32,895 bases of DNA, taken from a virus. The position numbers and the translations under genes are program-made. Shown here in pieces: positions 13,331 through 32,895 of the stretch. Where the stretch lies: the IMG/VR virus record IMGVR_UViG_3300046007_006446, positions 1-32,895 of that record; one strand, 5' to 3'. Each line of letters starts with the position of its first letter. The stretch's first letter is position 1. The notes below the pieces were generated by a model that saw only the letters and a program-made list of their open reading frames with translations, was not told where the DNA came from and did no database searches.

Positions 13331-16300
13331 ATGTCAAATGGCATAACAGGAGCAAGTATTACAGCAGTTGCTTTAGATGCAAACGGTCATCTAATTATTA
13401 CCATCACAGATTACTCAACTGATCCGGCTGGTTTAACTTATAATGTTGATGTTGGTTCAACAATAGGAAATACTGGCCCAACGGGAGCAACTGGCCCTCA
13501 AGGAGCAACCGGTGTTCCGGGCGCAACAGGTGTAACTGGAGCATATATTACTAATGCTACAGTAGTAGGAACAGGCAACCTTATATTTACTCTTTCAAGC
13601 GGTGTGACATTTAACGCAGGAAGCGTTGTTGGGCCAACAGGGCCTATGGGAGCAACTTCAACATGTCCTTCTTGTGTAGACCCACTAGGAGGAACCGGAG
13701 GGACAGCATACGGATGTGCTGACCTGATTAATATTGAAAAACTTGTTTTGTCGGACACATTCCAAACTTGGTATGACCGAACAAATCAAATCATTGACGC
13801 AGTTAATCCAATAAACATGTATGAAATTGCAGGATTGACTGGTATAGAAATAATAACAGGAAGAAGTAACTGTAATTATAATGGTGTTGTGGGCGTTGCT
13901 ATAGCAAATGGGCCAGGATTAACTTACGGAACAACAACTACAGGCATTTATAATAGAAGATTATTTGTTGACCCTGCTTCCATGCCTCTAGTTTCTGGAA
14001 TTTTTTCCGTCGCTAATAATGATATGTTCATTTTTAATGATGTTAGCGATACAACCAATGTTAATACTGGTACACCAAAAGCGGTTCTTGCAGAATACAT
14101 GGTTCCGCCAAGATTAACTTTTGATGAATTAGAATTAAACGGCGATATTGTAATTAATGGTAATTTTACTATAGTTGGAAGTCAAAGTAGTGTAGGTACA
14201 AATGATGTTGTTATTGAGAGCAAAAATCTCAATTTAGCATATCAGCGTTCCGCACTAATGACAATTACAGGCCCCTCAGCAGCAATACAACAACTTTATC
14301 AGATTGGAATTATTGGTGCTTCTGCATTTTACGATGACTCTGCAAGTAGTCCCGGAACAACAGCAGGAACCATAGGAGTCGTTAAAAGTATTACAGGTCC
14401 TCAAAATGGTCTAACTGCTCAAGTTTCTGTTGGTTCAATTTTTACTTCAGGAAATCCTGATGATTTTCAAATCGGCGGAACAATTAGATTTGTTTCAGTA
14501 ACGGGAACAACATTCTCTCTTCTTTCTGCCGATGGTTCAACCACAAATTTCTTTAGTGACGCAGACCTTGATGGTGCAGGAATAATTATTAAAGGATTGA
14601 GTGGTGACAAATACTTCACATGGGAAAATTGTAGCAACGCTTGGATATCAAACACAAATTTGGGTGTAGATAATGTTGGATTTATAACATCAAGAAATTT
14701 TAGAAATGTCTGTATTGCAGGAGATCAAAAAAACGAATTTAATTTTTACGGTGTAAGTGGTCAAAGTGGTCACACAACTTTAAGATTAGGACACGACCAA
14801 TATGGTAAGTGGATGTGGTCACATGCACATAATCTTGATGGTTCTCCTTTACTTTTAAAGTACGCATCAACAACTGCATCAACCGAAGAGCACACCTTAG
14901 CAACAATTTATGGATTGACCACTGGGCCATATAACTTTATTTCTGTTGGCGGAACTGCAAATATGTGGGCCCAAGGATTCAATTCGGATTTCTTGGATGG
15001 GGCTGGTGCAACCACAGGAACTCCATACGGAAATATAGGAGAACCAAATGAAGGAATTTCTGGTTCTGTAGCATACAGCATACCAATATCAGATAGTCGT
15101 GGTAAAATAAATGCTAATTGGCTTGAATCAGATTCAAACAGAATTAGGGTTTATCAAACGGGTCACGGATTAACAAACGGTAACTGCATTATAAGAACAC
15201 TTGGAGATGTTATGGGCCCAACCTCGGCGTATTATTCCGTGGCGAGTCCATATTCAACAAATCTTTCCGAAACAGTAGGCATTGTTGTTGAAGTTATAAA
15301 TTCTAACGAATTTGTTTATGTTAATAGTGGTTTGGCTACTATACCTGTCCCTCCAGACATTTTACCAGGTGTTTCTTTATTGTTGGGCCCAAATGGCAGT
15401 CTAACCTCAGATATAGGAGATCAATCTTCTTATATTGAAAAACCTATGTTCATGCCTGTTGCAATAACAGGTTCTATAGGTAACAGAAAAGCAACCGGAA
15501 TAGTACTATCTCAAGCAGGATTCCTAGTTGGAGGAGATGTAACAGACCAAATTTATGCTAGAGGTTTAGTTCCAGTTGGAACAATAATTCCTTACTCTGG
15601 CAATTTAAGCAATCTTCCGTCAGGAGTTTGGTTGCCCTGTGATGGAAAATCTGTTAGACCAGGATTATATCCAGAATTATATGCTGTAATAGGGGTAACA
15701 GCAGGAACAACGGAAGATCAAAAATACTATGCAGATGTTAAAGTGACAACTACTGCAAGTCAAAATTTTACAGATGAAGACGGAACAATTTCTGGACTTG
15801 AAGATTCTATTGCTTCAATGTACATTAAAGGTGGTACTAGAGGATTTGCAGCAGGAAATAACCCAATACTTGAACAGGGAGATCTAGTAAAATTAGCAGT
15901 TTACTCGAAAATCAGTAAATCTGTGGTTGCAAATCGAGATGCAAGAATTTGGTCTATAAATGGGCCATATGAACTCACCATAGCATTTAGGGTTTCAGTA
16001 GTTCAAGACGGGTATACAAGAGATCAATTTGTAGAGTTTTTAAACACAGTAAAAAGTGATAAAAATTACTCTATAAGATTGTATGGCCGACACCGAACAG
16101 ATGCTCTATCGCTTTGGGGAACCACATTACTACCAGATATAAGAAGTAGAACAATATACGGTTCTGGCCCTGGTGGCAGCGAATACGATAATGGTTCTCA
16201 AATGGTTGCTGGTGACCTTGTTAATTCTTTAGGATATTCTATAGGAGAAGATGGATATCCTAAACCTCTTGGTGGGGACGAATACGGTAGTCTAACTGGA

Positions 16301-17197
16301 AACAATGGAGTAACAGGATATAGTTACACTCCAGGTATTGTAACAAACTATGTTATAAGAGCAACTCCAGAAATTAACGCTTTAATTATATCAGGTCACA
16401 ACCATGATGACAGATATGTTCGTTTAGATGTTTCTCCTCAACAAGAATTGCATGTTTCTGGAACTACTGCCACCAACAGAGCAAATGCTCGCTACAATAT
16501 TCAAGCACTTTCTCGTGAAACAGGCGATACTCATGTTGGTGAATTTGGTATAACTTTTAATTCGCTCGGTCAATATAATTTTTATTCTGCAACATCTGGA
16601 GATGTATCTGCTTCTGTTAAAATAGAAAACCCTTATGGGTGGTCTAAACTAGTAATGTCTGGAGTAACAGGAGGATATATTGATATCAAATCTTCTAATC
16701 GTTCAGATTATGATTTAAGAATTATAGGTGGTTACTCTGCGGACGGTTACACAGGAAATCAAACTTGGTTGATTTCTGGTATAGGAAACGATTTGAAACT
16801 CGTTGTTGATGGCAACACGGGAGTTTCAAGAGAAACTGGAATTTATGTAAAGAGCGGAACAGGTTCTGCTCGTGGTAATGTTGGTATAAAAACAGATTCA
16901 CCCACACTTTCATTAGAGGTTAGAGGTTCAGGAGTTAAACTTGGGCCTAGTTTGTATTCGGGAAATACAACCAATCCTGCACCATCATGGGAAGAAATCC
17001 CAACAGAAGGAATGTTTCAAGGAGGTATGTTTAATACCACAGGATTAACAACTATTTCCATAGATTTTACAATAAATTCTTCAACATTTCCTAACAGTCC
17101 AAGCGGAGTTTATACTGTAGATCCTGGAACAGGAATAGTAATATCTTCAGGAAAAACAGTTATAATTGAAACTGGTTACACTTGGAAAATAATATGA
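13331..17197 (+). CDS. Long tail fibre with collagen-like repeats and tail-collar domain (gp10/gp12-like)
   Basis: A strong AAGGAAGGG ribosome site precedes the start. The 1288-residue product is modular. Gly-X-Y collagen-like triplets lie at about 46-73 and again near 97-106. A central beta region includes NFTIVGSQSSVGTNDVVI and an FNSDFLDGAG linker of the NADYLDG type. A phage tail-collar domain follows (VPVGTIIPYSGNLSNLPSG, then WLPCDGKSV and a tyrosine-rich YPELYAVIG, about 744-785), with its closing LPDIRSRTIYGSG at about 934-946. An SGHNHDDRYVRL motif (about 1021-1032) is typical of metal-bound trimeric fibres. The tail end carries NVGIKTDSP and a GVKLGPSLYSGN module shared with the genes that follow. 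It probably forms the trimeric short fibre or wedge pin that attaches the fibre array. Confidence 0.75.
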   Translation: MSNGITGASITAVALDANGHLIITITDYSTDPAGLTYNVDVGSTIGNTGPTGATGPQGATGVPGATGVTGAYITNATVVGTGNLIFTLSSGVTFNAGSVVGPTGPMGATSTCPSCVDPLGGTGGTAYGCADLINIEKLVLSDTFQTWYDRTNQIIDAVNPINMYEIAGLTGIEIITGRSNCNYNGVVGVAIANGPGLTYGTTTTGIYNRRLFVDPASMPLVSGIFSVANNDMFIFNDVSDTTNVNTGTPKAVLAEYMVPPRLTFDELELNGDIVINGNFTIVGSQSSVGTNDVVIESKNLNLAYQRSALMTITGPSAAIQQLYQIGIIGASAFYDDSASSPGTTAGTIGVVKSITGPQNGLTAQVSVGSIFTSGNPDDFQIGGTIRFVSVTGTTFSLLSADGSTTNFFSDADLDGAGIIIKGLSGDKYFTWENCSNAWISNTNLGVDNVGFITSRNFRNVCIAGDQKNEFNFYGVSGQSGHTTLRLGHDQYGKWMWSHAHNLDGSPLLLKYASTTASTEEHTLATIYGLTTGPYNFISVGGTANMWAQGFNSDFLDGAGATTGTPYGNIGEPNEGISGSVAYSIPISDSRGKINANWLESDSNRIRVYQTGHGLTNGNCIIRTLGDVMGPTSAYYSVASPYSTNLSETVGIVVEVINSNEFVYVNSGLATIPVPPDILPGVSLLLGPNGSLTSDIGDQSSYIEKPMFMPVAITGSIGNRKATGIVLSQAGFLVGGDVTDQIYARGLVPVGTIIPYSGNLSNLPSGVWLPCDGKSVRPGLYPELYAVIGVTAGTTEDQKYYADVKVTTTASQNFTDEDGTISGLEDSIASMYIKGGTRGFAAGNNPILEQGDLVKLAVYSKISKSVVANRDARIWSINGPYELTIAFRVSVVQDGYTRDQFVEFLNTVKSDKNYSIRLYGRHRTDALSLWGTTLLPDIRSRTIYGSGPGGSEYDNGSQMVAGDLVNSLGYSIGEDGYPKPLGGDEYGSLTGNNGVTGYSYTPGIVTNYVIRATPEINALIISGHNHDDRYVRLDVSPQQELHVSGTTATNRANARYNIQALSRETGDTHVGEFGITFNSLGQYNFYSATSGDVSASVKIENPYGWSKLVMSGVTGGYIDIKSSNRSDYDLRIIGGYSADGYTGNQTWLISGIGNDLKLVVDGNTGVSRETGIYVKSGTGSARGNVGIKTDSPTLSLEVRGSGVKLGPSLYSGNTTNPAPSWEEIPTEGMFQGGMFNTTGLTTISIDFTINSSTFPNSPSGVYTVDPGTGIVISSGKTVIIETGYTWKII

Positions 17198-17206: not shown

Positions 17207-17749
17207 ATGTCAGAATTAAAAGTAGATACCGTTAAAACACAAAATGAAAATAATTTAGTAGTAACCGAAAAACTTTCTGTAAAAGATTTTAGCGGAACGC
17301 AAAGTTTATTTACAGCAAGCAGAGAAAATGGAATTAAACTTTTTGGTCCTGTTTATTTCGGAAATTCTCAACACGATAATTCTTGCGGCAAACCAGGAGA
17401 ATTACTTTTTGGCAATGGAGCAACAAATTCGCCAGAATGGAGATCTGTTCCAGTACCGCCCATAATAAATATACCAGGAAATACTATGGTTCAAATTTTG
17501 ATTGATTACAATGGATTTTGCCCAACAGACACTAGACCCAGACCAGTTATACCAACAGTTGATCAAGTTCAAGACTGGTATTATTGTGATGGTACTAATG
17601 GCACACCAGATACAAGGATAACAAATCCATTAACTCAAGAAAAAGATTTTCCCGTATTTGATGCTAATTTAAGAGGAGATTATGTGAATGCTGATTGGGA
17701 AAATGTTTGTCAGTATACAAAATCAATTGCATACATTATGAGAATATAA
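17207..17749 (+). CDS. Fibre cassette 1: MSELKVD anchor with short collar-like head
   Basis: First of six consecutive genes starting ATGTCAGA. The 180-residue product has the array N-terminus MSELKVDTVKT, then a linker module (NGIKLFGPVYFGN, about 44-56, with SPEW about 76-79). It ends in a reduced tail-collar motif, DWYYCDGTNGTPDTRI (about 122-137), and a hydrophobic-basic terminus, YIMRI. Full collar domains have GWxLCDG followed later by TPDLRDRF. Here the two halves are fused into one short motif, so it may be a minimal head or a capping module. A GAGG ribosome site precedes the start, and only one base separates the stop from the next start. A role in host recognition is inferred from the anchor and context. 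Confidence 0.65.
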   Translation: MSELKVDTVKTQNENNLVVTEKLSVKDFSGTQSLFTASRENGIKLFGPVYFGNSQHDNSCGKPGELLFGNGATNSPEWRSVPVPPIINIPGNTMVQILIDYNGFCPTDTRPRPVIPTVDQVQDWYYCDGTNGTPDTRITNPLTQEKDFPVFDANLRGDYVNADWENVCQYTKSIAYIMRI

Positions 17750-17750
17750 A

Positions 17751-19439
17751 ATGTCAGAAATAAAAGTAAACAAAGTTAGTTCTGCGTTAAATCCTTTAAA
17801 GGTAAGTGTAGAACCAGGATTGGAAGTTAAAAATACCAGTCTATCTGAAGACAACCAAACAAGTTTTGTTGCAGATTCTTCCGGCGTTAAATTTTTGGGC
17901 CCAATTTTTGTTGGTAACGAAGCGTCTAACACAGCAGGAATTAAACGGCAAGTTTTATCCTCTAGAGGAAAAAATTTATCACCACAATGGGTAGATGAAC
18001 CTAATTCTTTGTGTGGAGATAGACCATTAATAGGCACTTTATGGGGAGTCGGAGCAAATAACACCGGTCAACTAGGACAAGGAAACACCGTTCCAACTTA
18101 TACGAATTTTAAACAAATTGCAGGAACTGGTGTATGGATAAGCATTTCAGCAGGTGGCGGTCACACCTTAGGAATAAAACAAGACGGAACTTTATGGGCT
18201 TGGGGTCTTAACGATAAAGGACAATTAGGAGACAATACAACTACAACAAGAACTTCTCCTGTAAAAATTGGTTCAGAAACAAACTGGTCTAGAGTTTTTG
18301 CAGGTTTGGGATTTAGTGCAGCCGTAAAAACAGATGGAAGTTTATATGTTTGGGGTAGTAATGATTGGGGACAACTTGGAACAAACAGACCGATTACAGA
18401 CACTCAAAAAATACCAGTTAGAGTTGGAACAGATTTCTGGCAACAAATAGAAATTGGTATAGCAAGTATAATTGGTATAAAACAAAATGGAACTTTGTGG
18501 GCTTGGGGTCAAAATAGTTTTCAGTCTTTAGGATTGAACACAACAACTACAACCATAAAAGTTCCAACACAAGTTGGAAGTGATTCGGATTGGTTACAAG
18601 TTTCACAAGGAAATAGTCATGGAATGGGGATTAAAACCAATAAATATCTTTGGGGTTGGGGCTCAAACTCACAAGGACAATTAGGAGATAGCACTACAGT
18701 AACAGCAACTACACCAAAATTAATAAGTAATTCTTTTTGGAAAGAAATTAATTGCGGAAATCAGTTTAGTGTTGGTATACAAGACGATGGAACTTTGTGG
18801 TCTTCTGGTAGAAATTCAACCTCACAACTTGGTGTTCCTTCTTCGGGGCCAAATGATAAAAAATTAAGTTTTGAAAAAGTAGGAACCGACGATAACTGGG
18901 ATTCAATATCTTGCGGGGATGGATGTTGTGTTGCTTTAAAACTTTCTGGAACAATGTGGGTTTGGGGTTTAAATGATAAAGGACAATTAGGAACAGGAAA
19001 TACTCAAACTATAACCACACCCACACAAACAGGAAAATCGGTTGTTTGGGCTCGTGCAACAATGTCAATTGCTATCGGATTTATGATTGGGATAGGAAAT
19101 GAACTATTGGTTGTTCCTATTGGAACTATTGCTCTTTTTATTAGAACAGGGTATACAGATCTAATAAACACATTAACTAACTCCGATTTTTTGGATGGAT
19201 GTCCAAATGGAACTCCTTGTGCTCCAAATCCTCCTCCAGCACCACCTCTAGGTTGGAAATATTGTGATGGAACAGATGGAACTCCAGATTTAAGATTTTA
19301 TCCAAATCCTTTAGATGAAGGAAATTATACTTTTCCTCCTTTATTCGGATATTCAGAAATAGATCCTACCGGTTGTGGAATTATTCCTGGCAGTAGAGCA
19401 GGACAATTGTGTTATATAATTAAAACAGAAATGGCGTAA
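17751..19439 (+). CDS. Fibre cassette 2: RCC1-type seven-repeat beta-propeller fibre protein
   Basis: The 562-residue product has three parts. Residues 1-90 carry the array anchor (MSEIKVNKVSS) and the linker module SGVKFLGPIFVGN with SPQW. Residues about 94-445 contain seven RCC1-like repeats, each with a core such as GTLWAWGLNDKGQLG. The seven cores begin GTLWGVG, GTLWAWG, GSLYVWG, GTLWAWG, KYLWGWG, GTLWSSG and GTMWVWG, and each is followed by a TxxPVKIG-like strand and a GxxHTxGIKxDG-like strand. Seven repeats make one closed propeller. The C-terminus contains a proline-rich hinge and the collar-like GWKYCDGTDGTPDLRF, ending CYIIKTEM. RCC1 propellers bind proteins or lipids in other systems; here a receptor-binding head is the natural inference. 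No Shine-Dalgarno site is visible, so translation may be coupled to the upstream gene. Confidence 0.8.
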   Translation: MSEIKVNKVSSALNPLKVSVEPGLEVKNTSLSEDNQTSFVADSSGVKFLGPIFVGNEASNTAGIKRQVLSSRGKNLSPQWVDEPNSLCGDRPLIGTLWGVGANNTGQLGQGNTVPTYTNFKQIAGTGVWISISAGGGHTLGIKQDGTLWAWGLNDKGQLGDNTTTTRTSPVKIGSETNWSRVFAGLGFSAAVKTDGSLYVWGSNDWGQLGTNRPITDTQKIPVRVGTDFWQQIEIGIASIIGIKQNGTLWAWGQNSFQSLGLNTTTTTIKVPTQVGSDSDWLQVSQGNSHGMGIKTNKYLWGWGSNSQGQLGDSTTVTATTPKLISNSFWKEINCGNQFSVGIQDDGTLWSSGRNSTSQLGVPSSGPNDKKLSFEKVGTDDNWDSISCGDGCCVALKLSGTMWVWGLNDKGQLGTGNTQTITTPTQTGKSVVWARATMSIAIGFMIGIGNELLVVPIGTIALFIRTGYTDLINTLTNSDFLDGCPNGTPCAPNPPPAPPLGWKYCDGTDGTPDLRFYPNPLDEGNYTFPPLFGYSEIDPTGCGIIPGSRAGQLCYIIKTEMA

Positions 19440-19441
19440 TC

Positions 19442-19966
19442 ATGTCAGAATTAAGAGTAAATAAAATATCTTCAACAAGCGATAACAAAGAATTGATTGT
19501 TAATTCTGGAATAGCGGTTGGTCAAACTGGAGAAACATATTTTGAAGTTCTTGATACTGGTGAAATAAAAGTAAACAATACTTTTTTTGTTGGTTCCCCT
19601 ACAGGAAACACTCATGGAGATGATTTTCAACTTCTAGTGTCAAATGGTCCAACAGAACCTCCATATTGGAAAACTTTTAGGTTTGATTGTCCAGCAATAA
19701 GTAACAATATACCGGCAGACAGCATAACATTTTATTTTTTAGAAGGATTTTATGCATGTGAGTTTCTTTATGGAACTCCTTGTTCTGGTGCGACAATACT
19801 AGCATTACCAGAACCACCAGATGGTTGGTTATGGTGTGATGGAACTAATAGTACTCCAAATTTAGTTTTTTCTTTTTCTCAGTGCAATTGTGGAACAGAT
19901 CCAGATGTTTTTGCTCAAACTGGAGACTCTAGAGTTTGGTCATTGATACCTATGATAAAATTATAA
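19442..19966 (+). CDS. Fibre cassette 3: MSELRVN anchor with short collar-like, cysteine-containing head
   Basis: The 174-residue product repeats the array plan: anchor MSELRVNKISS, a linker resembling the other cassettes (TGEIKVNNTFFVGS at about 40-53 and PPYW at about 75-78), and a terminal collar-like motif PPDGWLWCDGTNSTPNL (about 124-140). After that it differs from cassettes 1 and 2: a CNC pair at about 148-150 and a short end, VWSLIPMIKL. The start lies two bases after the RCC1 gene stop with no visible Shine-Dalgarno site, again pointing to coupled translation. It is probably a small receptor-binding or capping protein on the same attachment site as its neighbours. The function is inferred, not shown. 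Confidence 0.6.
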   Translation: MSELRVNKISSTSDNKELIVNSGIAVGQTGETYFEVLDTGEIKVNNTFFVGSPTGNTHGDDFQLLVSNGPTEPPYWKTFRFDCPAISNNIPADSITFYFLEGFYACEFLYGTPCSGATILALPEPPDGWLWCDGTNSTPNLVFSFSQCNCGTDPDVFAQTGDSRVWSLIPMIKL

Positions 19967-19978
19967 AGGATAATTTAT

Positions 19979-20794
19979 ATGTCAGAATTAAAAGTAAACT
20001 CGATAAAAAGTTTAGACACTAACGGAGTAAGAATAGATAGTCCAGTTGGTATAAACACCACTCCACCATCAAAAGGATTAAATGTTAGTGGTAGAGTTTC
20101 TGTGATAGATAATGGTCTTGAGGTGGTAACTGTAGTTTCTGAAAATTATGGTGTAAAAATAAAAGCACCACCAAGTAATAAAAATTCAGTTCTACAATTT
20201 ACAGAAAATGATGGAGTAGCAGAGCGAGCATTTATTGCTGCAAATAACAATAATGATTTGATTTTTAACACTGGTGCTACAGCAGCCATCATAACTGGTG
20301 CTGGATTATTTGATTGTTTATATCAGTCGCTGTTTAGAGGTAATACTACATTTCAAAGCACATCTCAATTTCAAGGTCAAGCAACTTTTAACAGCAATGT
20401 TATTCCAAAAACTGCTGGTGTTCCTTCTGCAAATGAAGATTTGGTGAATCTTGCTTACATTAAAAGCATACTTTTTTCTCCAACAATAGTTAAAACCTTT
20501 TCTACTTTTGGTGGTGTAAACAATGCTGGTCAGGGAGGTTGTTGTGCATATTATCCTGGAGCAGCAAACACTAGAAGTTTTACTGAACCGCTAGTAGGAA
20601 AATGGGCGGTTGTAGCATTTTCTTTTGGTGTTAGAGGATGTTCTTGTTACGACAACGAGCAATTTCATTTTCCAATAGATGATTCTAAAGTATTTTTTGT
20701 TGAAAATAACAGTATTAGAGATGTGATTGTGACTAATAGTTATTTTGGTAGTGTTTACAATGTGTTTGGATTTGCAGTAAAGGTTGGGGTGTAA
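19979..20794 (+). CDS. Fibre cassette 4: MSELKVN anchor with cysteine-rich C-terminal head (paralogue a)
   Basis: The 271-residue product begins MSELKVNSIKSL and has a beta-rich stalk (ENYGVKIKAPPSNKNSVLQF about 56-75, INTTPP repeats) and a TNKxYVD-type step (LVNLAYIKSIL). Its C-terminal head has a CC pair (GGCCAYYPG) and the motif RGCSCYDNEQFHFPIDDS. It is clearly homologous over its whole length to the next gene, so the pair arose by duplication. The conserved cysteines suggest a disulphide or a bound metal; neither can be decided from sequence. An AAAGGA ribosome site precedes the start and the stop overlaps the next start (TAATG). Confidence 0.6.
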   Translation: MSELKVNSIKSLDTNGVRIDSPVGINTTPPSKGLNVSGRVSVIDNGLEVVTVVSENYGVKIKAPPSNKNSVLQFTENDGVAERAFIAANNNNDLIFNTGATAAIITGAGLFDCLYQSLFRGNTTFQSTSQFQGQATFNSNVIPKTAGVPSANEDLVNLAYIKSILFSPTIVKTFSTFGGVNNAGQGGCCAYYPGAANTRSFTEPLVGKWAVVAFSFGVRGCSCYDNEQFHFPIDDSKVFFVENNSIRDVIVTNSYFGSVYNVFGFAVKVGV

Positions 20795-21657
20795 TGTCAG
20801 AAATACAAGTTAAAACCATAAAAGGACTAGGAACAGCAGGGATAACAATTAAAAATCCTGTAGGATTTGATGATATTGCTGCACCATCAAACGGAATTTC
20901 TGTTAATGGTGTTATTTCTGTTGTAAATAGCGGGGTTCAAGTTGTTACTGTTGAATCTGAAAATTTTGGTATTAAAATTAAAGCCCCGCCACAAAATTCT
21001 GGTTCTATACTGCGGTTTGCAGATAATAGTGGTAATGATAGAGCAGCAATAGTTGCATCTTTTGAAAAAGAATTGATGTTTGAATCGCAGGGAGTAACCG
21101 GAGTGGTTATGAATAACCAAGAATTGTTTGAAACAAAATATGCTTCACAATTCAGAAATACCAGCACATTGGCAGGAGAAACTCAATTTTTAGAACAATC
21201 CACATTTTCATTGCCTCCGAAATGTTCGGGAACACCAATTTTAGATGAACATTTAGTAAATCTAAATTTTTTAAAATTATGGTATTTATTTTCTCCTGAA
21301 AGAGTTAAACTGTGGTCTTATTTTGGAAATGTAGAAAATACAGGACTTGCTATACCAAAAGTTCCAAGTGGCAAACGAAAAGGAAAATGTTGCTGTGGGT
21401 GCGGTTCATATCCTGGAAGTAGAAATCCTGGTGATTATAAAACCATTCTCACGGGAAAGTGGACAATTGTTGCTTTTGGAATCGGAAAAAGAAGTTGTTC
21501 TTGCTATGATAATGAAGAATTTCATTTTCCAATAGACGATTCTGCTGTTTGGAATTTAGAAGACAATTCTGTTTATAACACAATATCGGGGAAAATGCCT
21601 GGTGTTAGCCTTTATAAAGGGTTTGGATTTGCAATAAAACAGTATCCATCATTGTAA
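20794..21657 (+). CDS. Fibre cassette 5: MSEIQVK anchor with cysteine-rich C-terminal head (paralogue b)
   Basis: The 287-residue product is the paralogue of the preceding gene. Aligned landmarks are SENFGIKIKAPPQNSGSI, LVNLNFLK, GKWTIVAFGIGKRSCSCYDN and FHFPIDDS, followed by a GFGFAIK ending (GFAVK in paralogue a). It differs in a lysine- and cysteine-rich insertion (SGKRKGKCCCGCGSYPG, about 190-206) that replaces the shorter GGCCAYYPG loop. The invariant SCSCYDNE..FHFPIDDS core with a variable Cys loop looks like a stable fold presenting a divergent surface loop, which would suit receptor binding. The start overlaps the previous stop by one base in TAATG. Confidence 0.6.
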   Translation: MSEIQVKTIKGLGTAGITIKNPVGFDDIAAPSNGISVNGVISVVNSGVQVVTVESENFGIKIKAPPQNSGSILRFADNSGNDRAAIVASFEKELMFESQGVTGVVMNNQELFETKYASQFRNTSTLAGETQFLEQSTFSLPPKCSGTPILDEHLVNLNFLKLWYLFSPERVKLWSYFGNVENTGLAIPKVPSGKRKGKCCCGCGSYPGSRNPGDYKTILTGKWTIVAFGIGKRSCSCYDNEEFHFPIDDSAVWNLEDNSVYNTISGKMPGVSLYKGFGFAIKQYPSL

Positions 21658-21659
21658 AT

Positions 21660-21667
21660 AATAAATA
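21660..21667 (+). promoter_or_regulatory. Candidate T4-type late promoter (AATAAATA)
   Basis: AATAAATA fits the NATAAATA late-promoter motif described for T4-like cyanophages. It lies just after the stop of fibre cassette 5 in the 26-base gap before cassette 6, whose AGAGG ribosome site is at 21671-21675. The motif is very close to the ribosome site, so a transcript starting about six bases downstream would have almost no leader. AT-rich sequence makes a chance match plausible. Confidence 0.3.
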
Positions 21668-21683
21668 ATTAGAGGTAAAATAA

Positions 21684-22619
21684 ATGTCAGATTTAAAAGT
21701 AAATTCTTTAGAAGCAGCCGCAGGTGGGTTTATAATTTCTCGCTCTGTTATAAAATGTAATACGCCACCAAGCGATAATAATGATTTAACAAACAAAACT
21801 TATGTTGATAATGCGCTTTCTGTTGTTAGTAGTGGCGCAGTAAATACAGGTTATGTTGATACTAGAGATCAATTTTATTATGATCAAGTTTCTCAAAACT
21901 TTGTTAATAAAACAAACAGTATTTCCGAAATTATAACCGGAGTTAAAACATTTCAAGATTCTCCTCTTTGTTCTGTGCAACCTAGCACGGCATCTTCTCT
22001 GACAAATAAACAATATGTAGATCAAGAAATTGGTTTAGGTGTTAATCAATCTAAGGCATATGTTGATGCTCAATTGGAAGCAACACTTTTGTCTACAGCA
22101 GATGCTATTAAAAAAATAGTTTTACCCAATCAAAGTGTAGTTTATACAGATCCAGACACAGGACAAACATATACAGGGCCAGCAGAAGTTTTAGGAGATG
22201 GCTCTACTCCTATTGCGATGATTGGTAAAAGTGGAATTTCCATAACAGGAGGAACAGCCATAGTTGCCTTCACAAAACCTGGAGGAGTTTTGGTTGAATC
22301 TGAAGTTAATACTATTACTATTGATAATAGAACTAGTTGGATTGTTTTTAATGGTGTAGGAGGATTAATTAGCAGAAGCGGTTCCAATATGGAGGTTTCT
22401 AGAACCAGCAACGGAACTTACACTATAACTCATAGTGCTGTGGGCGGAACTAGCGCGGGAATTTTAACATCTTTTAGCGGCAGAGTGAGCGGAAGTATAG
22501 TAACCACACCTCAAATTTTGGCTAGGAATACTGGAATAACTGGTGTGCAGATTATTACAAGATCAGGAACTGTTGCTACAGATTTTGATGATTTAATCAC
22601 AGTTCAAATAATGGGATAA
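21684..22619 (+). CDS. Fibre cassette 6: MSDLKVN anchor with TNKxYVD repeats
   Basis: The 311-residue product starts MSDLKVNSLEAAAGG. It contains two clear LTNKxYVD steps (LTNKTYVDNALS about 33-44 and LTNKQYVDQEIG about 108-119) and a third related YVDAQLEA. Such repeats build trimeric coiled/beta stalks in many phage tail fibres. The C-terminal half is beta-rich and Ser/Thr/Gly-rich (SRTSNGTYTITHSAVGG, then TSFSGRVSGSIVTT) and resembles a fibre tip. It has no collar-like motif and no Cys pair, so it uses a head type different from cassettes 1-5. An AGAGG ribosome site and a possible late promoter lie upstream. It ends one base before the next gene. Confidence 0.65.
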   Translation: MSDLKVNSLEAAAGGFIISRSVIKCNTPPSDNNDLTNKTYVDNALSVVSSGAVNTGYVDTRDQFYYDQVSQNFVNKTNSISEIITGVKTFQDSPLCSVQPSTASSLTNKQYVDQEIGLGVNQSKAYVDAQLEATLLSTADAIKKIVLPNQSVVYTDPDTGQTYTGPAEVLGDGSTPIAMIGKSGISITGGTAIVAFTKPGGVLVESEVNTITIDNRTSWIVFNGVGGLISRSGSNMEVSRTSNGTYTITHSAVGGTSAGILTSFSGRVSGSIVTTPQILARNTGITGVQIITRSGTVATDFDDLITVQIMG

Positions 22620-22620
22620 T

Positions 22621-23142
22621 ATGTTTGATACAAAACTACAAGAGTATATTGAAAATCAAAACAAAGCCTATTATTTTCATTCAGAAAAAAATACCAATTG
22701 TAAAATTAATGATTTGAGTGAACAACTAGAAAAAAAAATACAAAAATTCAGCGAACAAATAAAAGAAGAAATAAAAGAATCAGTAATATTTTCCAAACAA
22801 CACACAGATAATCTTTATAAAAATGTAGAATCTTTTATACCAAACATAAGCGACGATTTTTTTATTGGTTCTATTATATCAGTATCAGTAGTTTGTTCAC
22901 AAGAAGAAGCAGATATTCCATATCTTAATAATGGAATTAAAGTTAATAGTATACTAAACAATATTTACATGTACGAAAAAGAAAATGTTCAAAACCAAAT
23001 TTTTTATTGGTTTTTTGGTAAAGAAAATAATGATTGTTCATATGTAAAATTGCCTGGTGTTTGGAAATTTAGAGGAATTTGTGGTGGATTTAGTAATGAA
23101 GTAGTTGGGTTCAAATACTATCTTGCACAAAGGGTAAAGTAA
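22621..23142 (+). CDS. Coiled-coil fibre protein with WRCMG-like C-terminus
   Basis: The 173-residue product is not recognised as a named family. Residues about 28-75 are strongly charged with heptad-like spacing (LSEQLEKKIQKFSEQIKEEI), predicting a coiled coil. The C-terminal 80 residues are beta-like and end with LPGVWKFRGICGG and YLAQRVK. This resembles the LPGTWRCMG...LxQRI ending common to phage tail-fibre tips, with the cysteine shifted. It may therefore be a small trimeric fibre tip. The gene is packed one base after fibre cassette 6 and overlaps the next start (TAATG), in line with fibre-operon membership. Confidence 0.5.
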   Translation: MFDTKLQEYIENQNKAYYFHSEKNTNCKINDLSEQLEKKIQKFSEQIKEEIKESVIFSKQHTDNLYKNVESFIPNISDDFFIGSIISVSVVCSQEEADIPYLNNGIKVNSILNNIYMYEKENVQNQIFYWFFGKENNDCSYVKLPGVWKFRGICGGFSNEVVGFKYYLAQRVK

Positions 23143-23477
23143 TGGCAGTAAGTATCAATCACGATATGGATCAAGGCTCAAATTTTGCGTTTAGCATTTC
23201 TGCTAAAGATAGTTCGGGTAATCCTGTCAGTTTGTCTGGCAGCACAGCCTATTGTCAGATGCGTAAATATTACACCTCAGAAACTGCCATATCCCTAACA
23301 ACTTCTCTTACGGGAGGAACAGGAAACATTATAGTTTCTTTGGGCCCTACAGGAACTGCCGCTGTAAAACCTGGTGTTTACTTTTACGATGTGGAATTGC
23401 ATTCCGCAAACGGAACGCAAGTTCAGCGTCTTGTTCAAGGAATGATTACTGTTTATCCTGAAGTAACCAGAATCTAA
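23142..23477 (+). CDS. Small Ig-like virion structural protein (BppU/N-terminal fibre type)
   Basis: The 111-residue product is predicted all-beta. It begins with an [19 protein letters not shown] strand and continues [23 protein letters not shown], a pattern of tail-associated Ig-like domains (DQGxxFxFxxxxxDxxGxPVxLxG) used as fibre or receptor-binding-protein base modules. It ends [10 protein letters not shown]....[17 protein letters not shown], the usual last two strands. Overlap by TAATG on both sides places it in a tightly coupled group with the collagen-like fibre gene downstream, which it probably anchors or decorates. The family is common in phages; the exact role is inferred. Confidence 0.6.
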
Positions 23478-24481
23478 TGTGCTTTCCTGATATTAGTGTT
23501 GTAGTTGTTGGAGGGACTTCTACAGGCCCTGTGTCTTCAGTAAACATTTCTCCAGGAACTGTGTCTTCAGTTTCTGTTTCTACTGGTCTTCCTAATCCAG
23601 TTTCATCGGTTGGTATTTCATCTTCTGGGTTGGCTACTCCAATTTCAATGGAGCAAGCCGCGTTGTATGTTGGGGCTCAGGGGTCACAAGGAGTTCCAGG
23701 TGCTACAGGTCCTCAAGGAGCAACTGGCCCTAAAGGAGATAAAGGAGATAAAGGAGATACTGGAGAGAGAGGTGCTACAGGGCCCGCTGGTTCTGGTGAA
23801 GGAGGAGTAGGTGCTACAGGAGCAACTGGCCCTCAAGGTGTTCAAGGAGTTACAGGAGCAACTGGCCCTCAAGGTGTTCCAGGAGAACAAGGAATTCCTG
23901 GTGCTACAGGCTCTCAAGGTGTCACAGGATCGACTGGTGCTACAGGCTCTCAAGGTGTCACAGGAGCAATAGGATTCCGATATCTATACACTTCTTCAGG
24001 AACAGGACAAAGTGCAAACGGTGGGGTTAATTTTGGAGCAGGGTATATGTCTGGCAATTATGGAGTAGCAATACCCCACGGCGAATCAAATACTCTATTT
24101 CTTCCTGCAACAGATTACAGTAATTCAGATCGTTCAAATGTTTATGAATTTTTTGATTCTCTGCCTGGAACAGGAATTGCTGGATATCAAGGACATCTAT
24201 ATGTGCAAAGTATGCAACGAGATTTGATATCGGTTTATAGAATTGGAAGTATTAGTAGAATAGGCCCCTATAGTGGTGCAACAGCATGCTATGTGTTTAA
24301 TTGGAGTTCTGGACAAGAAGGATCTGCAACAGGTTCAGTGGCAGATGGAGTATTTGGAGAAGGCGAATTATTTGCAGTGTATTATGTTCCTGGTGGTCAA
24401 CAAGGAGCACAGGGAGCAAAAGGCAGCGATGCAACAATAACAACTTTAGATGGCGGATTGCTCAATATAGCAATACCGTAA
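23477..24481 (+). CDS. Collagen-like tail fibre protein A
   Basis: The 334-residue product has a Ser/Val/Thr-rich start ([17 protein letters not shown]), then Gly-X-Y triplets from about residue 68 to 165, including a charged [13 protein letters not shown] block and several [19 protein letters not shown] units. A head domain follows from about 167 ([17 protein letters not shown], continuing VNFG), like the C-terminal domain that follows collagen-like stalks in other phage fibres. A second short triplet run ([12 protein letters not shown]) and a hydrophobic end, LLNIAIP, close it. The start overlaps the previous stop (TAATG). A 71-base block here is identical to one in the next gene. Confidence 0.7.
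23809..23879 (+). repeat. 71-base direct repeat, copy 1
   Basis: Identical to 24811-24881, starting AGGTGCTACAGGAGCAACTG and ending CAAGGTGTTC. It encodes part of the collagen-like stalk of fibre protein A. The copies are 1002 bases apart and in the same reading frame. Confidence 0.9.
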
Positions 24482-24487
24482 ACTTTT

Positions 24488-25384
24488 ATGCCTGAAATTC
24501 AAATATCATTAAAGAAAGCAACACAAGATCCAACATCCGCATCGGGGTTAACCCTTGCGGAACCAGTATTCAATTCATCAAATAATACTTTTTGGATGGG
24601 CAAAGGAACAGGAAGTGCTCCAATATGGATTGGTGCAGGAATATCCGCATCAAGTGGTGTTATTGCTTCAGGCAGTCAATATTTAATTCCTACAGGAAGT
24701 GCGATAAAAGATTATATAAATCTAAATCTAGTTACAAGTGTTAACGGGCAAACGGGTTCTGTAACAATTCCTCAAGGTTCAACTGGCCCTCAAGGCGTTC
24801 AAGGCAACACAGGTGCTACAGGAGCAACTGGCCCTCAAGGTGTTCAAGGAGTTACAGGAGCAACTGGCCCTCAAGGTGTTCAAGGAGTTACAGGAGCAAC
24901 TGGCCCTCAAGGTGTTCAAGGAGTTACTGGTGCTACAGGAGCAACTGGCCCTCAAGGCGTTCAAGGCAACACAGGTGCTACAGGAGCAACTGGCCCTCAA
25001 GGAGAAATTGGCCCTCAAGGCATTCAGGGTGAAAGTTTTTACTTTAGAGGCCCTTATGGTGGTTCGGAGATTGTTTATAATCTCAATGATGTAGTTACAT
25101 TCAATGGCAATTCTTATATTTGTTTAACTAATAGTCTTACTGGCTCTCAACCAGATTCTTTAGTGGGTTGGGATGTATTTGTAGAAAAGGGTTCAACTGG
25201 CCCAACAGGAGATACGGGAGCAACTGGCCCTCAAGGAGAAACTGGCCCTCAAGGAGCAACTGGCCCTCAAGGAGCAACTGGTGCTCAAGGCATTCAAGGA
25301 GTTACAGGACCTCAAGGAAATACAGGAGCAGCAGGTCAAGCCGCAGACCTCGGATTTGTGATTGCGATGGCAATAGCCCTATAA
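24488..25384 (+). CDS. Collagen-like tail fibre protein B with carbohydrate-binding-like insert
   Basis: The 298-residue product starts [20 protein letters not shown] and reaches [16 protein letters not shown], which resembles the N-terminal virion-attachment domain of the major tropism determinant type. [15 protein letters not shown] leads into Gly-X-Y triplets (about 98-180) with [12 protein letters not shown] repeats. Residues about 183-234 interrupt the triplets with [20 protein letters not shown] and a closing W (GWDVF), the pattern of CBM5/12 chitin-binding-like modules. Triplets resume to about 285 before the hydrophobic end, [10 protein letters not shown]. The module may bind surface glycans. 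No Shine-Dalgarno site is visible before the ATG. Confidence 0.7.
24780..25015 (+). repeat. In-frame tandem repeats (36-base unit) in collagen-like gene B
   Basis: A 36-base unit containing CAACTGGCCCTCAAGGTGTT is repeated head to tail. It is flanked on both sides by exact copies of a longer block (24791-24840 and 24953-25001) containing GGCGTTCAAGGCAACACAGG. All units are multiples of three and encode [10 protein letters not shown]-type triplets. Length change by slippage or recombination would keep the frame. Confidence 0.85.
24811..24881 (+). repeat. 71-base direct repeat, copy 2
   Basis: Exact copy of 23809-23879, inside the stalk region of collagen-like protein B. See copy 1. Confidence 0.9.
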
Positions 25385-25387
25385 ATA
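25380..25387 (+). promoter_or_regulatory. Candidate T4-type late promoter (TATAAATA)
   Basis: A perfect TATAAATA, within CCTATAAATAT, overlaps the stop of collagen-like gene B and lies 13 bases before the next ATG. It matches the T4 late-promoter consensus and the CTATAAATA form in cyanophages. The AGGAG ribosome site is at 25391-25395. The likely start of transcription would fall near or in that site, so the promoter call is tentative. Confidence 0.45.
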
Positions 25388-25400
25388 TGCAGGAGAACCT

Positions 25401-26024
25401 ATGAAGAAACTACTAGGACAAGACGCATCAGGCACATACGCCTTCAATCCAACTGCAAAGACAGTCACCTTTTCAGGTCTGTCTCAGCAGATTACATTGG
25501 CTAACATTCTTTTGATTACCAATGTAACCGCCAACACTATTATCTACAATTTTGCTAGTTCATCCACAGGAGCAGTAAGTTTTGCCAACAATGTGCTGAC
25601 TCTAGACTACGACACCACATCCATGAGTTCCACAGATGTTCTGCAAATCTACCTTGACCTTGCAGGCGAAGAGTCACTACACGATCTCCTTCGCCGCATG
25701 AACAAACTGCTGGAAAGCAATGCTGTTGTTGATTCTCGTTTGCGCCAAAAGGTCGTAATAGAAGCAATCGGAACTAACTTGGCAGCACCAACCGAAGTTA
25801 ACGCAACTGTTCCTGTTTCGGGAACTGTTACAGCCACAGCCAATGTGAACAATGCTGTAACCGCTACAACATTCAACAACTCAGCAGTAAATCCATACAC
25901 CCTGTCAACATCACAGGTAGTAGGATTGGTTTCAGAAGGTCCAGTTCATCAATTATGGCGTGTAGCCAATGACGCTCAAGCCTGCTACGCTCAAGCAATT
26001 CGGTCTAAACTCTCATTCACATAA
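25401..26024 (+). CDS. Virion structural protein (hypothetical), partner of the downstream modular protein
   Basis: The 207-residue product is not recognised as a named family. Residues 1-85 are beta-rich and Thr/Ser/Asn-rich (VTFSGLSQQITLANILLI, then NVTANTIIYNF). A helical segment follows (ESLHDLLRRMNKLLESN, about 91-107). Residues about 120-160 repeat VSGTVTATANVNNAVTATT-like strands, and the end is mixed (HQLWRVANDAQACYAQAI). It has a good AGGAG ribosome site and a possible late promoter directly upstream. Codon use differs visibly from the genes to the left: more CGT/CGC arginine and AAC, fewer AGA. It is probably co-expressed with the 968-residue protein 12 bases downstream. Confidence 0.6.
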   Translation: MKKLLGQDASGTYAFNPTAKTVTFSGLSQQITLANILLITNVTANTIIYNFASSSTGAVSFANNVLTLDYDTTSMSSTDVLQIYLDLAGEESLHDLLRRMNKLLESNAVVDSRLRQKVVIEAIGTNLAAPTEVNATVPVSGTVTATANVNNAVTATTFNNSAVNPYTLSTSQVVGLVSEGPVHQLWRVANDAQACYAQAIRSKLSFT

Positions 26025-26036
26025 TAGGAATACACA

Positions 26037-28943
26037 ATGCCAGTAACCAATCTACTAAAGACACAAGTTGACCAACCCGTATTTGAATGGATGCGTTTTG
26101 CTCCCACAGCAACCGCAACACTATCGGCTTTAGCAGGATCAGACGATCTTGGTGGTCGTTATTTTTATTACATAGTTGCACAAGCCCTATGGCGTTATGA
26201 TACTTATTCGGATTCATGGCAGGAACTTGCTCCACCCAATACAGCACCAGCAACAGTTCTTGCAATGAAATATTCTAAGAATTCTGGTTATCGTGGTCAC
26301 ACCATTTCTGCAACTTCAAACACCATAACTGTTGCAGGATTTAGTCGTCACGCTCACATTCCTGGCGGAATTAAAATTCGCATCATTGCAGGCACAGGTG
26401 CAGGACAAGAGAGAACTATTACAGAAGTTGCTGACGCGGTAATTGCGGATTATGGTATCGCTACCACAGCAACCACTTCAACGATTGGTGATTCTACTAA
26501 GCGTTGGCGTGTAAATCAATGGGACGGGTATCAGTGTCGTCTAACTTACAGCACAGGTCAAAGTCAGATTCGTAGAATTCTTTATAACGACACAACAACC
26601 TTAACTTTTTCAGATGCAAACTTTCAAGCCATTGATTCGTTTAACAACACAGGCTTTTCAATTGTGTCTCCGTATGCTGCTCCTGTAACTACAGCAGGTT
26701 CACAAACTCATTTTGTAATTGAGTCTGCACAATTAACTGTAGATACTCCTTGGACGGTTACACCAGATCAGTCTTCAATTTATCTGATTGTTTCTGGCGG
26801 ATTGTGGCTACTATCATCTTCCGCATCATCTCCTTGGACAACATGGCAGTTTTACGATATTTTATCAGATACTTGGCAAAATAAAACTCCAACTAGCGGT
26901 CATTTAGGTGCGGCTCTAGCAACAGATGTCTCTATTGACAAAATAGGAGAATTTGCAGGAGCAAGCATTTCAGGAAATACTGCCACTGCATCAACAATTA
27001 AAACTTTAGTTGATAGTGGCGCAACAATGGCATATGATCGTTGGGCAAACTATCAGTTGCGTATTGTTTCGGGCCCTGGCATAGGACAACGCCGCCGAAT
27101 TGTTGGTAATACCGATACCACATTTCATATAGATCATAATTGGGATGTGGCTCCAAGTGCAACATCTCAGTATTCAGTATTTCCTAATACAGATATGATT
27201 TGGATGATAGGCAACGGTTCTTCACAACTACACGGATATTCTGTTGAGAGAGATCTGTGGTTTAATGGTCATATGAGTGATTACGGTATTTCAAGAAACA
27301 TTTCTATTACTCCTGTATCAACAACGGGATATTTTCCGCCACACGAAGGATACGCTGCCACAAACATTATTTTCAACGGAACTGGAGTGCTTGCGGTAAC
27401 TGTTCTGCAAGGTGGAACTGGATTTACCGCAGGAGAACTATTGAATCTTATTACCACAGGTTCGGGTGCTCAGGTTTGGGTTACAAGTGTTACAGGGCCT
27501 CAAGGAGCAATCAATACCATTGAACTGGCTGCTTGCGGAACAGGATACACATCAACCGTATCCACATCAATCCTTAACGGTGGCTCGGGGACAGGAGCAT
27601 CAGTTAATGTGGTTTCTGTGGGTAAGAATGCTCTGATAAATGTGGCAACCAACCACGATTTTCGTGGCCCATCAAGTGGAATCCCTATGGAATATGTCAG
27701 CATCACAGGCTGCTCTGCTGGTGTGGATTCCTCGTTCAATAATACCTTTGGTGTTATTGGTGTTCAATCGTTAACTGGCTTTTATATTGCTTGTCCAAAC
27801 GCTGCGGCATCGCCAACAGGAACTACATTCCATAACACTTTACTCATGGTTGATTCTGCACAAAACTGGACAACCAATGAACATGTTGGAAAACTTTTGA
27901 TGCTTCAAACAGGCGGAACTGCTTCGCCAACACTTCAAGTTCGTAGAATTATTTCCAACACTCAAAACGCTCTAGGATTAACAGGTGCAATAACCGCACC
28001 TACTAACGGAACAAGTCGTTACATTATTCAAGAGCCTCGTGCTTTTGGTGCAATGCTTGTGAACAAGCGGTCAGGTAAGGAACCAACAGGTTGGGCAACA
28101 TCTGCCACATCAACTACCCTTGTAGACACATCAAAGGACTGGCTCCCAAATCAATGGGTAAACTGTCGTGTAAGAATTACTTGCGGAACAGGTGCAGGGG
28201 GTGAAGCAGTTGTTATCACAAACACACGAACCACACTTACTGTGGCATCTTGGCCCAATGGAACACCAGATGCAACATCCGAGTATGATATTGGAGACTC
28301 GTATGGATTTGTTACAACCGCAGGAACCGGAGTAGCAACCATTACCGATGCCAACAAAAATTGGCCAACAAACTCCTTGGCAGGCAAGCGTATTCGCTTT
28401 ATTGGTGGAACAAATATTGCTAACGAATATTCAATCGTATCTAATACTGCAACGGTTATAACTATAGGCTCTTCTATTACAACAGACACTTCTTCAATTT
28501 ATGTGATTTATGAGCCACCTATTCGTTCCACAGGAACCAATTTAACTTGGCTGTTTGGTTTAACAGACACAGAGAAGCAAGGTAAATTCTTGATTTCTCC
28601 TCGTGGTGGTGGTTCTAACATCTTTGATCTGTATGACATCACACAAAATAGATGGGACATCACACCGTTCTTCTCTCCCATGTCAACAACTGTAACCACA
28701 GGTTCCATGTATACCTATGATGGTGGAGATAATTATTACTTCACGAAAGATGCAACAGGTCGTGTCTATCAATTAAACATGAATACATTTGCGGTTAACG
28801 CAGCCGCAACGACTCCGTATGCACACAGCACCGCTATTCTTGGAAATCGTATGGAAATTGTGGAAACCGTAGACGGATTGAAGTATCTGTATATCATGCG
28901 TCATACAGGTCAGGAAATGTGGAGAACTCTCAAGTTCTGGTAA
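26037..28943 (+). CDS. Large modular virion protein with GTGAGQ-type repeats and Kelch-like segments
   Basis: The 968-residue product has an AGGA ribosome site. Six related modules of about 60 residues occur near 85-150, 145-210, 320-383, 601-663, 691-751 and 765-824. Each has a DxxKxWxxNxWxG start, a basic RIxxGTGAGQxRxI centre and a TTLT...PDATSxYxI end, as in TLVDTSKDWLPNQW and RVRITCGTGAGGEAVV. Similar modules recur in phage fibres and adhesins. Between and around them are Kelch-like strands: LWRYDTYSDSWQELAPP (about 48-64), FYDILSDTWQNKTP (about 271-284) and DLYDITQNRWDI (about 863-874). A disc- or propeller-like adhesin on the virion is the best guess. Its last 14 bases overlap the convergent resolvase gene. 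Confidence 0.7.
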   Translation: MPVTNLLKTQVDQPVFEWMRFAPTATATLSALAGSDDLGGRYFYYIVAQALWRYDTYSDSWQELAPPNTAPATVLAMKYSKNSGYRGHTISATSNTITVAGFSRHAHIPGGIKIRIIAGTGAGQERTITEVADAVIADYGIATTATTSTIGDSTKRWRVNQWDGYQCRLTYSTGQSQIRRILYNDTTTLTFSDANFQAIDSFNNTGFSIVSPYAAPVTTAGSQTHFVIESAQLTVDTPWTVTPDQSSIYLIVSGGLWLLSSSASSPWTTWQFYDILSDTWQNKTPTSGHLGAALATDVSIDKIGEFAGASISGNTATASTIKTLVDSGATMAYDRWANYQLRIVSGPGIGQRRRIVGNTDTTFHIDHNWDVAPSATSQYSVFPNTDMIWMIGNGSSQLHGYSVERDLWFNGHMSDYGISRNISITPVSTTGYFPPHEGYAATNIIFNGTGVLAVTVLQGGTGFTAGELLNLITTGSGAQVWVTSVTGPQGAINTIELAACGTGYTSTVSTSILNGGSGTGASVNVVSVGKNALINVATNHDFRGPSSGIPMEYVSITGCSAGVDSSFNNTFGVIGVQSLTGFYIACPNAAASPTGTTFHNTLLMVDSAQNWTTNEHVGKLLMLQTGGTASPTLQVRRIISNTQNALGLTGAITAPTNGTSRYIIQEPRAFGAMLVNKRSGKEPTGWATSATSTTLVDTSKDWLPNQWVNCRVRITCGTGAGGEAVVITNTRTTLTVASWPNGTPDATSEYDIGDSYGFVTTAGTGVATITDANKNWPTNSLAGKRIRFIGGTNIANEYSIVSNTATVITIGSSITTDTSSIYVIYEPPIRSTGTNLTWLFGLTDTEKQGKFLISPRGGGSNIFDLYDITQNRWDITPFFSPMSTTVTTGSMYTYDGGDNYYFTKDATGRVYQLNMNTFAVNAAATTPYAHSTAILGNRMEIVETVDGLKYLYIMRHTGQEMWRTLKFW

Positions 28944-29532
28944 TAGTATGTTGTGTTCCGTAGGCGGCTAGCCAAACTGCATCCACAACATCACTTACCG
29001 GATTGCCTATCTTACCTTCTCGTCCTGCTAAACGGGCTTGCATATCTACACCGAAACGCTGCTGAAATGCCGCATGCATTTTTTCTTTATCGGCATTTCC
29101 TTTGCCTGTTGCCCATTTTTTAAGAACGGTTGGGCCCACCACCGAGAACGGTATTTTAAGATTCCACAGTTTCCATTTTAATAATCCAGCGTTCTCTCCG
29201 ATATGGAAAACACGCCCTTTGGCTCCAAGAGCATAGTCCTCTATCATTACTTGGTCGGACGCACCAGCGAGGCTTATAGCCCATTCTGAGAGCCCCTGAT
29301 AGCGTTCCTCAGGTGTCGTCCAAGCAGGATATTCCCATCCTTTTATTAAAAAGTTACCAAATTTAAAATCACCTAGAAACTTTTTAGTCGAAGTAAGATA
29401 ATGGGCTTGGTAGGATAGCCCGCCGTCTGTGGTTACAGCAACACACGGCGAGCATAACGAATAGTCAATTCCTACAATTTTCACCCCATTATTTATGGGG
29501 GTCAGTTTGCCACGAGGTCTACGATTTCGCAT
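28930..29532 (-). CDS. RuvC-like Holliday-junction resolvase / RNase H-fold nuclease
   Basis: The 200-residue product shows the four acidic positions of the RuvC active site: D23 in KIVGIDYS, E98 in QVMIEDYALGAKGR, and D181 and D184 in SDVVDAVWLA, with the usual three-residue spacing of the last pair. GKGNADKEKM (about 142-151) matches the basic segment before the last acids. Phage resolvases of this type cut branched DNA before packaging and process recombination intermediates. The start at 29532 overlaps the end of the reductase gene by 31 bases and lacks a clear ribosome site, so it may be translationally coupled. A GTG at codon 17 would also give a plausible KIVGIDYS start. The 3' end overlaps the convergent fibre gene. 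Confidence 0.8.
   Translation of the reverse strand: MRNRRPRGKLTPINNGVKIVGIDYSLCSPCVAVTTDGGLSYQAHYLTSTKKFLGDFKFGNFLIKGWEYPAWTTPEERYQGLSEWAISLAGASDQVMIEDYALGAKGRVFHIGENAGLLKWKLWNLKIPFSVVGPTVLKKWATGKGNADKEKMHAAFQQRFGVDMQARLAGREGKIGNPVSDVVDAVWLAAYGTQHTITRT
29484..29500 (-). repeat. Hairpin directly after the reductase stop, inside the resolvase 5' region
   Basis: CCCCAT and ATGGGG form a perfect six-pair stem with a five-base loop, one base after the stop of the - strand reductase gene and near the resolvase start. On the - strand the loop region reads CATAAATA, which fits the NATAAATA late-promoter pattern. No T-run follows, so it is unlikely to be a simple terminator. Confidence 0.45.
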
Positions 29533-31439: not shown

Positions 31440-31460
31440 TGTATTTCTCCTAGTTATAGT

Positions 31461-31478
31461 GTTCCTGTATGTAGGAAC
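31461..31478 (-). repeat. Hairpin in the leader of the reductase gene
   Basis: GTTCCT and AGGAAC form a six-pair stem with a six-base loop between the Mom-like gene stop and the reductase ribosome site (AGGAG at 31447-31451 on the opposite strand). A TATAAC sequence between hairpin and ribosome site resembles a -10 box but has no good -35. It could be a mild attenuator, a processing site or chance. Confidence 0.4.
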
Positions 31479-31490
31479 CACAAGACTAAT

Positions 31491-32309: not shown

Positions 32310-32338
32310 ACAAATAAAAACTCACAAGGGAGTTCCTT

Positions 32339-32366
32339 AGTATAGCATGAATTTTTCGTGTGTCAA
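32339..32366 (-). promoter_or_regulatory. Sigma-70-type promoter for the Mom-like/nrdJ/resolvase operon
   Basis: On the - strand a perfect -35 TTGACA (32361-32366) is followed after 16 bases by a -10 TATACT (32339-32344). The -35 directly abuts the stop codon of the upstream 111-residue gene. The leader of about 25 bases contains a short AACTC/GAGTT hairpin followed by a T-rich run. This is the only clear host-type promoter in the window. Confidence 0.75.
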
Positions 32367-32702: not shown

Positions 32703-32717
32703 TGTTGATCCTTTCTA

Positions 32718-32894: not shown

Positions 32895-32895
32895 A

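Follow-up and report, generated by a model that had tools for sequence, protein, structure and literature searches.

Why would a T4-like phage carry six neighbouring genes that begin almost identically and end differently? The question is raised by the virus record IMGVR_UViG_3300046007_006446, which was analyzed over its complete length in IMG/VR (32,895 bases; hereafter the window), and in which six genes, here named g1 to g6, follow a gene for a large collar fibre. On the basis of sequence comparisons, we consider it fairly likely that the six genes form a co-inherited receptor-binding cassette of T4-like phage adhesins, whose products would dock by a short N-terminal plug.

The six consecutive genes and their start peptides, reported earlier for this DNA, were all recovered on the plus strand: g1 (17207..17749, 180 amino acids, MSELKVD), g2 (17751..19439, 562 amino acids, MSEIKVN), g3 (19442..19966, 174 amino acids, MSELRVN), g4 (19979..20794, 271 amino acids, MSELKVN), g5 (20794..21657, 287 amino acids, MSEIQVK), and g6 (21684..22619, 311 amino acids, MSDLKVN). 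They are tightly packed, with intergenic gaps of 1, 2, 12, -1, and 26 bases and the g5 start overlapping the g4 stop (TAATG). Within the block, promoter-like sites are no more frequent than expected by chance, and terminator-like sites exceed expectation only a little (8 vs 4.4). The near identity of the first 20 bases also held: the whole record contains six copies of ATGTCAGA, exclusively at the six starts, and the degenerate 20-mer ATGTCAGAWWTAARAGTAAA, allowing at most three mismatches, gave 6 matches versus 0.03 expected in shuffles. At the protein level, the chance of one start fitting MS[ED][LI][KRQ]V[NDK] is about 2e-5, as calculated from the residue frequencies of 167 other phage open reading frame (ORF) starts.

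A survey of viral contigs with a degenerate DNA pattern for MSE[LI]KVN.I returned at least 119 stretches. An ORF begins at the motif in 114 of the 119 survey stretches listed, mostly in fibre-like genes with diverse C-termini, and across the loci examined the motif is N-terminal in all 32 distinct protein contexts, the sole variants being MTSEIKVN and a GTG start. Among fibre-like genes of aquatic phages, the start peptide MS[ED][LI]KVN is common. Many viral contigs (loci L048-L165) have a gene starting with MSEIKVNSIKGVGASAAAITV or similar, often ending in AEL and very variable at the C-terminus; three such genes were searched against Pfam and gave no match. Loci L097 and L129 each hold three plug-start genes that lie several kb apart and are not adjacent. 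Two groups of candidate relatives were discarded, namely pelagiphage tail-fibre matches, in which the plug is neither at the start nor inside the genes examined, and the tail-fibre array of P-SSM2, which has collar similarity and no plug.

A start that is very short, strictly N-terminal, and common to many unrelated fibre-like genes could also be an assembly element for trimer nucleation or chaperone recognition instead of a docking plug, and the neighbouring gene g8 (23142..23477, plus strand) does resemble a fibre-assembly protein (‘L-shaped tail fiber protein assembly’, phrog_3304, 5e-18). We regard this explanation as unlikely, given that no chaperone partner was identified and that in well-studied fibres, such as those of T4 and T7, the N-terminus is usually the virion-proximal end.

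Behind the common start, the proteins fall into three families, g1 to g3, g4 with g5, and g6, and not into the four kinds of C-terminus described in the original prediction. The necks of g1, g2, and g3 are mutually similar (E 1e-6 to 1e-11), as are g4 and g5 (E 3e-29), while between families significant similarity seldom reaches beyond the first 10-60 residues. The members of the first family share an N-terminal anchor and neck of about 80 residues, plus a reduced collar end with the pattern GWxYCDGTxGTPDLR...YIxK. This end did not reach the cut-off of the Collar domain (PF07484; g3 12.9 bits vs 24, g1 and g2 unmatched), and the single-copy relatives in L023 and L123 match Collar weakly, yet better than g1 to g3. 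The RCC1 propeller of g2, formerly taken for its C-terminus, is internal (about residues 97-436), lying between the anchor and neck and the reduced collar end. Its identity is clear from an RCC1-like domain match of 230.5 bits (cut-off 150), seven RCC1 stretches, and RCC1 repeats (PF00415) at 175.2 bits (cut-off 21.7); the AlphaFold model of g2 has a recognisable RCC1 fold, and RCC1 structures head the fold search with TMt of about 0.8.

In the second family, g4 and its paralogue g5 have an anchor within a common beta-rich shaft (about residues 1-165) and a Cys-rich head, to which g5 adds a KCCCGC insert. The TNKxYVD motifs of g6, also assigned to the C-terminus before, are located in its N-terminal anchor and shaft (motifs at about residues 36-115, shaft about 1-120), and the head is separate. 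Taken as a whole, conserved N-termini and variable heads within a T4-like baseplate/fibre locus bear out the earlier view of an adhesin-like set. Neither g1 nor g4 has a family match in Pfam or PHROGs. Searches of cultured-phage proteins returned no matches with g1, g4, and g6 and no relative with a shaft-type query, while g2 found matches mainly through RCC1; the RCC1 genes of S-SRM01 and BUCT-ZZ01 were rejected as array members for having no plug.

The same six genes in identical order were found in three further contigs, G001 (IMGVR_UViG_3300017701_001078), G002 (IMGVR 3300007735_000783), and G003 (IMGVR 3300047551_001516). Four other loci (L023, L047, L123, and L127) have three adjacent genes each, one per family, in the order collar, shaft, YVD, and the 145 kb contig of L123 contains the plug pattern three times in total. 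Six in a row is indeed unusual: apart from the three relatives with all six, no locus among the survey matches listed has more than three such genes side by side. In phylogenetic trees, g1 forms one clade (support 99/97) and g3 another (98/95) across the four six-gene phages, and g4 together with g5 stands apart from the single-copy shafts (100/99); the trees did not resolve how g2 branches, nor how g4 branches relative to g5. These relationships suggest that an ancestral three-gene set probably became six by old tandem duplication prior to the split of the four lineages, with an uncertain root for the collar type.

The near identity of the first seven residues in all six proteins would also fit a competition for one socket, in which a virion or site carries a random mixture of them. 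Still, the families diverge past about 10 residues, which is also consistent with distinct sites, and the order of the three families is conserved in eight phages, as expected of distinct roles; we therefore give such competition a small share of the probability.

The inheritance of the cassette was visible when the relatives were aligned. Compared with the window, G001 DNA is 64-85% identical over the first 16 kb, 87-100% at about 16.4-23.1 kb, and about 71-80% beyond, while G001 and G002 are mostly 86-99% identical outside this block and scarcely alignable within it. The proteins follow the same pattern. Between G001 and G002, amino acid identity is 95.6-100% from gp25 to gp10, 93.7% in the fibre N-terminal part, and 100% in g8, and it falls to 53.5% in the fibre C-terminal part, 35.5-49.8% in g1 to g6, and 48.0% in g7. 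Between the window and G001 the relation is reversed, with 79-85% from gp25 to gp10, 75.2% in the fibre N-terminal part, and 82.8% in g8, against 98.4% in the fibre C-terminal part, 84.6-92.7% in g1 to g6, and 94.7% in g7.

Both crossovers could be located. The left seam (16362..16478), where G001 turns from G002-like to window-like, lies in the fibre gene at HNHDDRYVR (about residues 1023-1031), just past the collar domain, and the right seam (23069..23168), where G001 turns back from window-like to G002-like, lies at the 3′ end of g7 and the start of g8. The cassette consequently comprises the last ~260 residues of the fibre (DNA from about 16,420), g1 to g6, and g7, a gene of unknown function (22621..23142, plus strand, 173 amino acids), about 6.7 kb altogether. 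A syntenic adhesin block that departs in this way from the relatedness of its flanking backbone is the mark of an exchanged host-recognition module, seen here in one recipient contig, and it indicates that g1 to g6 move between phages as one block, with the fibre C-terminal part and g7.

Near the right seam (23,000-23,200), the GC content of the window steps from about 34% to 44%, and G001, G002, and G003 have a comparable step; a chimeric join of the window at the 23.1 kb step was rejected for that reason. A further contig, G004 (IMGVR 3300046010_004942, locus L176), is 100% identical to the window at 22,170-32,895, from late g6 to the end, with the exception of one 300-base bin near 25.8-26.1 kb (84%).

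Could G001 itself be a chimera, in which metagenome assembly joined a G002-like to a window-like phage? It is a metagenomic contig, and a second contig with the same seams was not found with a 29-base cassette probe. Such an artefact, however, would take two independent misjoins, and the sample would also have to contain a diverged window-like donor. The cassette of G001 differs from that of the window by several percent (dS 0.02-0.21 by segment) and is thus not contamination by the same phage; moreover, the right seam of the window is also contained within G004, and the GC step at 23.1 kb is common to the relatives. Given these facts, we consider a chimeric origin of the block improbable.

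The gene starts had also been suggested to act as recombination seams for swapping heads. In all six starts codon 2 is TCA, above the codon usage of the window (p=0.002), with a mild excess also at codons 3-7 (p=0.024), and the synonymous identity of the starts is gone by codons 11-20. A DNA-level feature without any protein role, whether for translation initiation or for recombination, is nevertheless a very remote explanation of these identical starts, because orthologue starts differ in DNA (GTGTCG, ATGTCT, ATGTCC) and largely retain the peptide, TCA after ATG is general to such genes (second codon in 113/123 such starts among the survey matches listed), so that the DNA identity needs no recombination, and the crossovers sit in the fibre gene and at g7/g8, with all six genes moving together and no exchange seen to begin at a start.

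Within the cassette, heads tend to change faster than necks. In the comparison of the window with G001, a crude two-sequence estimate, the ratio of nonsynonymous to synonymous change (dN/dS) is 0.72 for heads, 0.36 for necks (pooled), and 1.30 for the RCC1 domain (Fisher test of head vs neck, p=0.018), with the g5 shaft (1.22) as an exception. Over longer distances heads are replaced: g4-type shafts bear unrelated heads in L023, L047, L123, and L127, and in g6 the shaft is 51-54% identical to G002 and G003 and the head about 27-28% in a partial local match, the head being largely replaced. In genes of both types the ATG lies about 110-165 residues upstream of the replacement.

For the receptor-binding cassette we propose the following working model. 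Each of the six proteins would start with the plug MS[ED][LI]KVN.I, continue in a neck or beta-rich shaft, and end in a head; the plug would dock the protein onto the tail apparatus, and the head, or in g2 the RCC1 propeller, would touch the cell. An ancestral trio of collar, shaft, and YVD types may have expanded to six via tandem duplication, with the propeller inserted between anchor and head in one copy. Since the fibre C-terminal ~260 residues, g1 to g6, and g7 appear to be inherited and exchanged as a unit, they may together form one assembly, in which the fibre C-terminus would be the likeliest dock, perhaps with g7. Virion presence, the docking role of the plug, the fibre C-terminus as dock, and receptor binding are what we infer from these sequences, and exchange of the whole set would probably alter which cells the phages attach to.

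Several results weigh against this model. The exchange is visible in a single recipient contig of metagenomic origin, and the 29-base probe, placed in the fibre C-terminal part, returned no further cassette contig. AlphaFold monomers reached a mean predicted local distance difference test score (pLDDT) of 53 and 61, with N-termini below 50 and no confident anchor fold; the g4 family had no convincing match among PDB sequences, and a fold search with g4 gave no match at E<=0.001. The fast g5 shaft and the crudeness of the dN/dS estimate belong here too. Melnitz and HTVC008M, two of the best cultured gp6 matches, have no such genes among those examined, which means that the array is not a general part of T4-like phages. 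Taken a step further, MS[ED][LI]KVN.I might be a portable docking plug that mounts almost any head across unrelated aquatic phages, with cassettes growing by duplication and spreading whole; we offer this wider idea tentatively, as possible rather than likely.

The surroundings of the array are those of a T4-like myovirus, with gp25, gp6, and gp8 homologues in order as judged by Pfam (PF04965, PF21379, and PF09215) and PHROGs (phrog_261, phrog_219, and phrog_438), and the best cultured matches of gp6 belong to Kyanoviridae according to their records. On the plus strand, the gp25 homologue (726-1130) is followed by the gp6 homologue (1127-3061), a gp7-like wedge protein (3069-5483), the gp8 homologue (5515-7974), a DUF4815 protein (7985-13090), and the large collar fibre (13331..17197, 1288 amino acids), whose Collar domain at residues 750-792 scored 30.5 bits (cut-off 24). 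Right after g8, the backbone gene beyond the cassette, two collagen-like repeat proteins are encoded (23477-25384), a region with little in common between the window and its relatives and still 93% identical between G001 and G002. Further on, the minus strand (28930-32309) encodes a RuvC-like resolvase, a ribonucleotide reductase with class II features, and a Mom-like DNA modification protein.

The locus offers a natural experiment, in the form of a phage backbone that appears to have swapped its entire adhesin set in one block, with crossovers that can be mapped, and the exchanged block points to parts that must fit together, namely the fibre C-terminus, the six adhesins, and g7. The short N-terminal signature, which lies outside any Pfam or PHROG match of the six proteins, may serve to recognise adhesin genes in aquatic viromes, and there is reason to suspect tail adhesins among the phage RCC1 proteins that carry a DNA condensation label.

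Phage RCC1 proteins (phrog_4219, phrog_7220) have the RCC1 propeller in common with g2. Proteins of the phrog_4219 type, a PHROG that g2 matches, were detected by mass spectrometry in virions of E. coli phage W70, where the authors suspected a role in encapsulating DNA (PMC11370258), and an RCC1 protein was likewise detected in the GAP32 virion (PMC5259590). Whereas such proteins are annotated under chromosome condensation or DNA metabolism, the propeller of g2 lies between a fibre anchor and a collar head, an arrangement that favours an adhesin role for g2, and the DNA metabolism or chromosome condensation label in PHROGs and records may be wrong for the RCC1 proteins of many phages. In S-SRM01 (L007, 4671-13098), a long tail fibre gene is followed within 3 kb by two of the three RCC1 genes.

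Among known systems, the branched tailspike cluster of Ackermannviridae (TSP1-TSP4), for which gene duplication has been proposed as the origin, resembles g1 to g6 in that its receptor-binding genes lie side by side and encode conserved N-terminal modules with C-terminal heads that vary (PMC11414711). Those tailspikes, however, rely on large domains (anchor, XD, and TD) whose contacts are defined, whereas g1 to g6 have the short plug alone, and no Pfam or PHROG match to these domains was found in the six proteins. Alteromonas phages A5, V22, and P24 likewise carry an entire host-recognition module, conserved in synteny, on backbones that are unrelated (PMC10579305), although that module centres on one tail fibre and its chaperone in distantly related phage families, while here six adhesins are exchanged between related T4-like phages. 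In marine metaviromic islands, too, tail-fibre and adhesin genes are the most variable, more so in the C-terminal than in the N-terminal part (PMC3909814); the islands were defined by read recruitment, while here a donor-like cassette and both crossovers were located. As to the short tail fibre of the T4 gp12 type (PF07484), g1 to g3 end in a similar collar-like GW..CDG...GTPDLR motif, though in a reduced form that stays under the Pfam cut-off; the preceding fibre gives the full match of the window. Adhesin clusters with conserved N-termini, exchange of host-recognition modules, and variable adhesin islands are therefore already known, and what is new here is the six-member array, the short plug that three head families share, the RCC1 propeller placed inside g2, and the block exchange with its mapped seams.

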